This document shows, one piece after another, positions 34,213 through 36,445 of a stretch of DNA of 36,445 nucleotides (its first letter is position 1; every line of letters starts with the position of its first letter). Origin of the DNA: an uncultured Bacilli bacterium (lineage in GTDB: Bacteria; Bacillota_I; Bacilli_A; RF39; UBA660); NCBI GenBank assembly GCA_947594925.1, contig CANQEJ010000005.1:1-36445 (forward strand). The letters are read 5' to 3'. The notes beneath the pieces were generated by a model. The model was given only the letters and a program-made list of their open reading frames with translations, was not told the DNA's origin and ran no database searches. Made by a program: the position numbers and the translations under genes.

Positions 34213-34241
34213 TTGACATTTTTATAAAAATATAGTATATT
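34213..34241 (+). promoter_or_regulatory. Promoter of antitoxin RNA copy 1
   Basis: TTGACA, 17 bp, TATATT. The inverted pair TATACTAT (34206-34213) and ATAGTATA (34232-34239) flanks the -35 and enters the -10, so an operator is possible. Start near 34248. Confidence 0.75.
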
Positions 34242-34267
34242 TATATCGCATTTAAGAAATTACGAAA

Positions 34268-34316
34268 ATGTTTCTCGCTTCCGGGTGGCTAGCGAGTAAT
34301 AAATAATCCCGGTCGA
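34268..34316 (+). repeat. Antitoxin repeat unit 1a
   Basis: 49-base unit, identical to the next one; arms CTCGCT/AGCGAG and CCGGG/CCCGG. Confidence 0.93.
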
Positions 34317-34318
34317 CA

Positions 34319-34367
34319 ATGTTTCTCGCTTCCGGGTGGCTAGCGAGTAATAAATAATCCCGGTCGA
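34319..34367 (+). repeat. Antitoxin repeat unit 1b
   Basis: Exact copy of unit 1a after a 2-base CA spacer; followed by AA and ATGCAG, a third junction. Confidence 0.93.
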
Positions 34368-34375
34368 AAATGCAG

Positions 34376-34407
34376 AAAAACTTCATCGTAAGATGGAGTT
34401 TTCTTTT
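34376..34407 (+). terminator. Terminator between antitoxin RNA and toxin gene
   Basis: AAAACTTCATC-GTAA-GATGGAGTTTT then CTTTT. In type III systems a leaky terminator here sets the antitoxin:toxin ratio. Confidence 0.8.
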
Positions 34408-34441: not shown

Positions 34442-34909
34442 ATGAAAATAAAAACAGGTTATTTATATCACATCAAAGATGAATATTTTGATGTCGTTAA
34501 TGATGAAAGCTTAATGCAAAACCATGAAAGAGGGAAGAAAAGACCCACATATTTTACAATTAAAGATAAAGATATTTTATGGTTTATTCCTATTAGTTCT
34601 AAAGTTGATAAATATCAAAATATTATTGATAAAAAAAGGGAAAAATATGGATTTTGCAATACAATATTGATTGAAAAAATCTTTAATGAAAAATCAGTAA
34701 TTTTGTTACAAAATGCTTTTCCAACTTTAGAAAAATATATAGACCATGTTCATACAGTAGATGGCAAGCCAGCCAAAGTTTCTCTAAAATTAGAAAAAAT
34801 TATTCTTAGAAATTTTCAAAATTTAATGAAATTGCACAGTAAGGGTATTAAAGTGTTTTTTACAGATATAGATAAACTAAAAGAAAAAATGTTAAAAGAG
34901 ACAAAATAA
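34442..34909 (+). CDS. cptN: Type III toxin-antitoxin RNase toxin, CptN/ToxN family
   Basis: Endoribonuclease toxin held inactive by the adjacent pseudoknot RNA. The start is the ATG at 34442 (MKIKTGYLYHIKDEYFD) with GGAG nine bases upstream. The frame is open 24 codons further but that stretch is the antitoxin terminator and must be non-coding. The 155 residues match CptIN-family toxins: GYLYHIKDEYFD, RPTYFTIKDKDILWFIPIS, SSKVDKYQ, NTILIEK, ILLQNAFPTLEKYIDHVHT and a C-terminal helix plus VFFTDIDKLKE. No membrane segment. Related type III toxins (ToxN, AbiQ) cause phage abortive infection. Family identification is from memory of the motif pattern, not a search. Confidence 0.87.
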   Translation: MKIKTGYLYHIKDEYFDVVNDESLMQNHERGKKRPTYFTIKDKDILWFIPISSKVDKYQNIIDKKREKYGFCNTILIEKIFNEKSVILLQNAFPTLEKYIDHVHTVDGKPAKVSLKLEKIILRNFQNLMKLHSKGIKVFFTDIDKLKEKMLKETK

Positions 34910-34944: not shown

Positions 34945-35961
34945 ATGATTAAAAATTTTACTACAAATACTTTAAGACCTATGATGAAAATTTCTGAAAT
35001 GGTTTCATATTTAAAACAAAAAAATATTAAATTTGAAAAAATGACTGATGTTGAAGCAGAAAATTATTTGAGATACAATAATAATTATTATAATGTGACA
35101 GCATATAAGCATAATTTTGAAAAATATTTCATTAATGGGAAATTTGTTGATAAATTTATAGATTTAGATTTTGCTTATTTAAAGGATTTATCTATTATTG
35201 ATTATAGAACTAGATTAGTTTTATTTAAAATGATTATTGATATTGAACATTATTTAAAAATAAGAATTTTAAATTTAATAGAAGATATTTATAAAGAAGA
35301 TGGTTATAGAATAGTAAATTTATATTTAGAAAAAGACTTTAATGATGATAAGCTTCCTAAAAAAGTACATAATGGTATATTAAAAAAAGTTGGAAGTGAA
35401 TATTACCATAAAGTATTTTCCAAATATGATATTGATAAAGATACAAAATTAGAAAATATTCCGGTTTGGAAATTTTTAGAAATAATAACATTTGGTGATT
35501 TAGTTAATTTTTATGAGTTTTTTGCTAAAGAATATAATTTGAAAAATGAAATTAAAAATGTATTTATTTTAAGAGAAATTGTAAAATTAAGAAACGCAGT
35601 TGCTCATAATTCATGTGTTCTATGTGATCTTGACAAAAAAGATAATAATTTTGCCCCTGATTTTAAAATAGTGCATTATTTAAATAATTGTGGGATAGGA
35701 AAGAAAACAAGAGATAACAAATTATGTAATTCAAGAATAAGGCAAATAACTTATACACTTTATATGTTTAATAAAATTGTGACTAGCACCGGTGTTAAGC
35801 TAAATGTCACTAAAGATATAAATAATTTGTTTTATAAGCGAATACTTTTACACAAAGAATACTATAATAATAATGAACTATTAAAATCAATATATGGCTA
35901 TTTTGATAAGATAATAAAAAAACATTATAGTATAAATATTGATGAAAATAGTTTGACATAA
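34945..35961 (+). CDS. Abi_2 (AbiD/AbiF) family HEPN abortive-infection protein
   Basis: The 338 residues match the Abi_2 family (PF07751): N-terminal MMKISEMVSYLKQKNIKFE, then AENYLRYNNNYYNVTAYKHNF, FAYLKDLSIIDYRTRLVLFKMIIDIEHYLKIRI, and the HEPN nuclease motif R216-N-A-V-A-H221 in LREIVKLRNAVAHNSCVL, predicted to cut RNA. Abi_2 proteins block phage growth when activated. It begins 35 bases after the toxin gene, with AGGTGAT upstream and no own promoter, so both may be co-transcribed. It is followed at once by a promoter and a hairpin RNA (35953-36049). AbiF proteins with an adjacent noncoding RNA have been reported as toxin-antitoxin pairs and as likely Cas13 relatives. Confidence 0.88.
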   Translation: MIKNFTTNTLRPMMKISEMVSYLKQKNIKFEKMTDVEAENYLRYNNNYYNVTAYKHNFEKYFINGKFVDKFIDLDFAYLKDLSIIDYRTRLVLFKMIIDIEHYLKIRILNLIEDIYKEDGYRIVNLYLEKDFNDDKLPKKVHNGILKKVGSEYYHKVFSKYDIDKDTKLENIPVWKFLEIITFGDLVNFYEFFAKEYNLKNEIKNVFILREIVKLRNAVAHNSCVLCDLDKKDNNFAPDFKIVHYLNNCGIGKKTRDNKLCNSRIRQITYTLYMFNKIVTSTGVKLNVTKDINNLFYKRILLHKEYYNNNELLKSIYGYFDKIIKKHYSINIDENSLT

Positions 35962-35981
35962 TCAGTATTATGCGGTAATAT
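35953..35981 (+). promoter_or_regulatory. Promoter at the end of the Abi gene
   Basis: TTGACA (inside the last codons and stop of the Abi gene), 17 bp, TAATAT. Start near 35988. Confidence 0.75.
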
Positions 35982-35985
35982 GATT

Positions 35986-36049
35986 ATGCAAGGAAAAAGT
36001 GTTTACACTTTTGCATGGGCACTGTCTTAATTGATGGAGCCCTATTTTT
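35986..36049 (+). ncRNA. Predicted small RNA next to the Abi_2 HEPN gene
   Basis: About 62 nt between a strong promoter and a terminator. Hairpin 1: ATGC, bulge AAGGA, AAAAGTG-TTTA-CACTTTT, GCAT (35986-36016). Hairpin 2: GGGC-A-CTGTC-TTAATT-GATGG-A-GCCC (36017-36042), followed by TATTTTT, acting as the terminator. No reading frame of useful length. Position and size fit an RNA partner of the HEPN protein, but no known motif was matched. Confidence 0.6.
36017..36049 (+). terminator. Terminator of the small RNA
   Basis: The hairpin GGGC ... GCCC with the inner CTGTC/GATGG pairs (two G-U), then TATTTTT. Confidence 0.65.
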
Positions 36050-36050
36050 C

Positions 36051-36122
36051 TGTAAAAATTTTTAAATTTTATATATTTAGATTGGCTTTATTCCTCCCAA
36101 ATGAGATTGCATTACATCTATT
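36051..36122. other. AT-rich gap without recognised feature
   Basis: No gene, hairpin with T run or repeat was found between the small RNA terminator and antitoxin copy 2. Confidence 0.5.
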
Positions 36123-36139
36123 TATACTATTAATGTGAC

Positions 36140-36168
36140 TAGACATTTTTATAAAAATATAGTATATT
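36140..36168 (+). promoter_or_regulatory. Promoter of antitoxin RNA copy 2 (weakened -35)
   Basis: TAGACA, 17 bp, TATATT. The -10 and spacer match copy 1, but the -35 changed from TTGACA to TAGACA. Start near 36175. Confidence 0.6.
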
Positions 36169-36194
36169 TATATCGCATTTAAGAAATTACGAAA

Positions 36195-36241
36195 ATGTTT
36201 TTCGCTTCTGGATGGTGCGACTAATAAATGATTTCAGGCGA
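36195..36241 (+). repeat. Antitoxin repeat unit 2a
   Basis: 47 bases; arms TCGC/GCGA and CTGGA/TTCAG. Confidence 0.88.
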
Positions 36242-36243
36242 CA

Positions 36244-36290
36244 ATGTTTTTCGCTTCCGGGTGGTGCGACTAATAAATAATCCCAGTCGA
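36244..36290 (+). repeat. Antitoxin repeat unit 2b
   Basis: 47 bases; arms TCGC/GCGA and CCGGG/CCCAG (one C-A mismatch). Closer to copy 1 than unit 2a is. Confidence 0.88.
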
Positions 36291-36296
36291 AAATGC

Positions 36297-36324
36297 AAAC
36301 TTCATCGTAGGATGGAGTTTTTTT
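36297..36324 (+). terminator. Terminator of antitoxin RNA copy 2
   Basis: AAACTTCATC-GTAG-GATGGAGTTT followed by TTTT; stem as in copy 1, loop GTAG instead of GTAA. Confidence 0.8.
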
Positions 36325-36382
36325 ACTTAAAAGATAAAGTATCTTCATCATTGAATTCTTGATTTTTATGTGAATTATAATT

Positions 36383-36426
36383 CAAAATGTCCGCTTTTTT
36401 GAATTGATTTACAAAACAAAATGTCC
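36383..36426. repeat. Short direct repeats at the window end
   Basis: CAAAATGTCC occurs at 36383-36392 and 36417-36426 (34-base period), beside the palindrome GAATTATAATTC (36372-36383). This could be the end of an IS21-type element, whose ends carry repeated short motifs, but no transposase is in the window. Confidence 0.3.
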
Positions 36427-36445
36427 TATTAAAAAAATTAATTAA

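Follow-up and report, generated by a model that had tools for sequence, protein, structure and literature searches.

Array 1 and the gene downstream of it almost certainly constitute a chromosomal CptIN type III toxin-antitoxin system, in which the repeats of the array would be the RNA antitoxin CptI. This assignment comes from sequence comparisons across the window, i.e. the whole stretch of 36,445 nucleotides that was analysed. The preliminary description of this DNA dealt with the repeats as pseudoknots and did not recognise the CptIN system. The ORF downstream of the repeats matched the NCBIfam CptIN equivalog model NF047359 with 157 bits, where the cut-off is 90 (E=2.8e-46), and its product aligned over its full length with the crystallised CptN of Eubacterium rectale, CptN_Er (PDB 4RMO, E=2.7e-17). 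The further features of such systems were also present: tandem repeats of ∼45-50 nt, a promoter before them, a terminator between them and the toxin gene and, in each repeat, an H-type pseudoknot with a tiny L1 and an A-rich L2. The order array, terminator, cptN recurred in nearly all of the ∼95 toxin loci; viral contigs held few CptN relatives (2 loci). When the window was searched against Rfam 15, and the region with relaxed thresholds, chance matches alone and no match to CptI were returned, so genome annotation misses the CptI-type RNA here. The features are collected in Table 1; cptN starts ∼40 nt past the terminator of array 1, and the Abi_2 gene begins 35 nt past the end of cptN.

Table 1. 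Predicted features of the CptIN locus and its surroundings (positions in the window)
Feature	Position	Strand	Details
Array 1 promoter, TTGACA-17-TATATT	34213-34241	+	top promoter-like site in region, 11/12
CptI unit 1	34263-34313	+	covariation
CptI unit 2	34314-34364	+	S1 34325-34329/34343-34347, S2 34332-34336/34359-34363
Intrinsic terminator, gap between array 1 and cptN	34377-34402	+	one of just two terminator-like sites in region
cptN, 155 aa, endoribonuclease toxin (type III)	34442-34909	+	NCBIfam NF047359 E=2.8e-46; PDB 4rmo E=2.7e-17
Abi_2 / AbiD-AbiF family gene, 338 aa	34945-35961	+	Pfam PF07751 E=3.6e-25; PADLOC AbiD E=3.2e-18
Candidate Abi_2-associated small RNA	35953-36052	+	promoter, structured RNA, terminator
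Array 2 promoter, TAGACA-17-TATATT	36140-36168	+	
CptI unit 2a, type B	36190-36238	+	S1 TCGC/GCGA, S2 CTGGA 36208-36212 / TTCAG 36233-36237
CptI unit 2b, type B	36239-36287	+	S2 CCGGG 36257-36261 / CCCAG 36282-36286
Array 2 intrinsic terminator	36297-36320	+	
Final 77 bases of contig	36369-36445	.	contig C39 ends in the same 77 bases; junction in assembly graph

Array 1 (copy 1) consists of two direct repeats of 51 nt each (34263-34364) that are 98% identical, and array 2 (copy 2) of a related pair of 49 nt each (36190-36287); the two arrays have matching leaders and terminators. In unit 1 the arms of S1 (CTCGC 34274-34278 / GCGAG 34292-34296) alternate with those of S2 (CCGGG 34281-34285 / CCCGG 34308-34312), and these positions confirm the interleaved a-b-a'-b' order, with an A/T-rich linker before b', that had been described for copy 1. 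L1 is a 2-nt step (34279-34280), the junction between the stems in copy 1 is TGGCTA, and L2 is the A-rich linker TAATAAATAAT (34297-34307). ViennaRNA, for which the pseudoknot is not scorable, predicted a nested S1 hairpin alone. In copy 2, S1 is reduced to 4 bp (TCGC/GCGA) and the outer pair is T-C. The S2 of unit 2a pairs as C-G, T-A, G-C, G-T and A-T, just as had been listed previously, and that of unit 2b (CCGGG/CCCAG) has the single C-A mismatch that had been noted.

The fold of the repeats is real and under selection, as judged from covariation among homologous units. A scan of genome contigs for CptN gave 80 loci, to which a family search added further loci; a profile search for the unit then yielded 117 distinct units, 107 of which were parsed by a fixed pattern. 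In an alignment of 20 diverse units, 93% of the pair cells of the ten-pair pseudoknot were paired, compared with 24-46% when the registers were slid by 1-3 columns, and whole-structure covariation was 0.623 against 0.262 +/- 0.031 in shuffled alignments (0/500 as high). The fold thus passed the covariation test on a deeper alignment that had been named beforehand as the check capable of refuting it. S2 was paired in 97% of cells in this alignment, with double-sided changes at all five of its pairs; such changes were seen at 3/5 pairs of S1. Among the 107 distinct units S2 was paired in 97.6% of cells versus 78% when the arms were shuffled (0/2000), and there were 29 combinations of S2 arms, e.g. 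CCGGG/CCCGG, CCAGG/CCTGG, CTGGA/TCCAG, CCGAG/CTCGG, CCTGG/CCAGG, GTAGA/TCTAC and GTGAA/TTCAC. The fixed pattern demands CGC/GCG in S1, and the 107-unit result is therefore uninformative on the inner S1 pairs, a limit from which the 20-unit alignment is free. The outermost S1 pair was weak (68% paired in the 107 units). A sixth S1 pair beyond the inner end of the stem, implied when the arms were first written as CTCGCT/AGCGAG, was not borne out, the base opposing the T being T in 62, A in 26, C in 12 and G in 7 of the 107 units.

Across the 107 units, S2 appears free to vary provided that pairing is kept, and the core of S1 and L2 barely change. Conservation is strong in the A-rich L2, where position 4 is U in 100/104 units, and the length of the junction varies (CTA, CATC or T in some units). 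The two units of an array had unlike S2 stems in 50 of the 84 arrays with two parsed units, and therefore changes arise within arrays too. When the S2 pair states were placed on the toxin tree they required at least 63 changes (at least 32 in unit 1 and at least 31 in unit 2), a count that unit exchange between arrays could inflate. The possibility that the interleaved complementarity is due to chance, for which the shortness of the stems and the occurrence, albeit rare, of comparable 5+5 bp interleaved stems in 14/5000 dinucleotide shuffles of a copy-1 unit might speak, is refuted by the 20-unit, 107-unit and toxin-tree analyses and has a negligible probability.

The preliminary description had taken the compensatory changes in copy 2 as direct evidence of selection on the fold. 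Selection on the fold is upheld by the wider covariation; fresh compensation at this locus is not. First units in the sister toxin clade usually carry the stem CTGGA/TCCAG, from which unit 2a differs by one G-U wobble. As the S2 of unit 2a is thus, but for this wobble, what first units of a different CptIN lineage commonly show, comparison of the two copies alone is weak evidence.

The CptI pseudoknot itself is not new, since its H-type fold has already been solved by crystallography (PMC4627078); with 107 distinct units, a fold known from one crystal structure gains a test by natural variation. In the Eubacterium rectale system processing of two repeats yields H-type pseudoknots of 45 nt whose L1 is a single base, and the A-rich L2 runs along S1 and contains a functionally required kink at U30 (PMC4627078). 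Like it, the locus in the window has a pair of antitoxin repeats preceding the gene for a CptN that is related along its full length, and it shares the build of the pseudoknot, i.e. S1, S2, a very short L1 and a long A-rich L2 with a U. The U at position 4 of L2 is presumably the counterpart of U30. However, the units here are 49-51 nt long compared with the processed 45-nt monomer, the type A units (defined below) have a longer junction between S2 and the 3' arm of S1, and cptN is followed by the Abi_2 gene and a second array. The Ser-Ser/Thr-Arg triad of CptN_Er has its match in a Ser-Ser-Lys motif at toxin positions 52-54, which is nearly invariant and has Lys in place of Arg. Relative to CptN_Er, this motif and Ser85 are present in the window toxin, Asp81 is aligned with Asn, and Tyr104 is replaced by His (codon 34751-34753). 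Details of cleavage may differ, because Tyr104, which binds the scissile adenine in CptN_Er, is His in 93/93 relatives.

ToxIN (Pectobacterium, Bacillus) and AbiQ share with this locus a repeat RNA that forms pseudoknots, a terminator and an endoribonuclease toxin (PMC5086642). However, ToxI units are 34-36 nt long with base triplexes and ToxN is a different protein family, one that was absent among the Pfam, NCBIfam and PADLOC matches, which argues against assignment to ToxIN.

If the locus works as its counterpart in Eubacterium rectale does, a sigma-A-type promoter would give a transcript of two 51-nt units, most copies of which would end at the terminator while some would read through to cptN. 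Each unit forms an H-type pseudoknot (S1 of 5 bp, very short L1, S2 of 5 bp, A-rich L2 along S1); the CptN endoribonuclease would cut the precursor at the unit boundaries and the resulting pseudoknots would keep CptN inactive. What the sequences show is the gene order, the promoter and terminator, the toxin family, the fold through its covariation and the way in which array type follows toxin lineage. We also considered that the repeats might be a cis-regulatory pseudoknot, i.e. an attenuator or riboswitch-like leader for the downstream genes, as their position between promoter and terminator and upstream of a gene would allow. This is very improbable and was set aside, as repeats of just this kind inhibit the family of CptN, the product of the downstream gene, type III antitoxins typically come as tandem units, and copy 2 and other arrays occur without the gene.

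The antitoxin reading is also consistent with the distribution of array types. Type A arrays have a long junction and CTCGC, type B arrays have TTCGC and a short junction in the final unit, and the remaining arrays make up a third group. On a tree of 93 toxins the array types required 4 changes, versus a mean of 42 for shuffled labels, i.e. array type tracks toxin lineage in these sequences. The toxin in the window lies in the type-A clade, and array 1 matches it in type. Array 2 belongs to type B, which goes with the sister toxin clade, and no type-B toxin accompanies it. Type and clade disagree most plainly at L058:2823-3465, where a clade-B CptN follows a type-A array, which hints that types A and B might cross-protect. 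Among distant systems with 35-44% toxin identity, CptI antitoxins gave no cross-protection (PMC4627078). Because array types follow toxin clades and many arrays are toxin-less, antitoxin specificity and antitoxin-only immunity should be testable on existing sequences.

The result that a specialist would least expect is the occurrence of stand-alone CptI arrays. A search with the unit model found arrays in 106/386 genomes of the host family, and we sought cptN within 450 nt of each of the 87 distinct arrays that had at least 650 bases downstream. Fifty-one were followed by an intact cptN, 10 by a partial one and 26 by none within that distance, the last being an approximate fraction because the sampling covered the better-scoring matches in draft assemblies and may have overlooked toxins that have diverged strongly. 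Exactly two units were present in each of the 51 arrays with an intact cptN. Toxin-less arrays, found among loci L117-L209 and exemplified here by array 2, had one, two or four, and numbers other than two were seen only in arrays lacking an intact cptN. A shortened cptN is kept at some loci (L120, L131, L141), and toxin loss is therefore a real route to such arrays. A new protein family behind the toxin-less arrays was also considered and rejected, unrelated genes and cptN remnants alone being found there. A short full-text literature search, which does not by itself prove absence, found no paper on stand-alone CptI arrays. It is conceivable, and in our estimate unlikely, that stand-alone arrays are common and functional in this family, providing immunity against related mobile CptIN toxins, and that stems particular to each lineage decide which toxins they block.

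Array 2 is a second CptI array with its own promoter and terminator and without cptN in the 125 bases left of the contig, most likely a leftover or a stand-alone antitoxin. That it functions as an antitoxin and is retained in the absence of its toxin, as anti-addiction against the toxins of mobile elements or as a spare, is a tentative proposal that we consider rather less than likely. The frequency of sampled arrays with no detectable cptN downstream (26/87) is in its favour, as are the intact promoter and terminator of several toxin-less arrays and the similar pairing of S2, which was complete in 32/40 toxin-less and 90/101 toxin-linked units (not significantly different, p=0.18). However, the cptN remnants at the three loci with a shortened gene fit recent toxin loss and drift, odd unit numbers are confined to arrays without an intact toxin, the units of copy 2 carry one wobble and one mismatch, and the contig stops 125 bases beyond the terminator. 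An improbable alternative is that copy 2 belongs to another, complete CptIN module as its antitoxin, the toxin being encoded past the contig end. Tandem CptIN modules are known at L005, L044, L052 and L076, and in relatives L021 and L004 the Abi_2 gene is followed by an array and cptN. However, cptN usually begins ∼80 nt past the last unit and no CptN start is encoded in 36301-36445; moreover, the final 77 bases, common to another contig, mark an assembly junction at a probable inserted repeat.

Directly 3' of the Abi_2 gene, between the two arrays, lies a candidate small RNA with a promoter (TTGACA-17-TAATAT, 35953-35981), structure from ∼35983 and a terminator hairpin with a T-run to ∼36052. 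Its hairpins keep their pairing through compensatory changes in three relatives (L021, L004/L066 and L148), and it may serve the Abi_2 protein as an RNA antitoxin. Searched against Rfam, including the AbiF RNA family RF03085, the RNA at 35983-36052 had no match up to E=10. In Clostridioides difficile, an Abi_2/AbiD/F protein, AbiF, likewise adjoins a small structured RNA, RCd22 (PMC12373285); unlike that system, the RNA here is 3' of the gene, has its own promoter and is without an Rfam match. In a congener the Abi_2 gene and the small RNA are present with neither array nearby, and the pair is therefore probably a separate module set beside CptIN. Two other loci, L073 (where the stretch had no match in Rfam) and L142, have other short hairpin-like stretches (GTGCCTAGAAAACTTTTGAAGCTCTAGGTC; GGTACTCAGGAAACTTTAGAAGCCCTGAGTC) by an Abi_2 gene or array.
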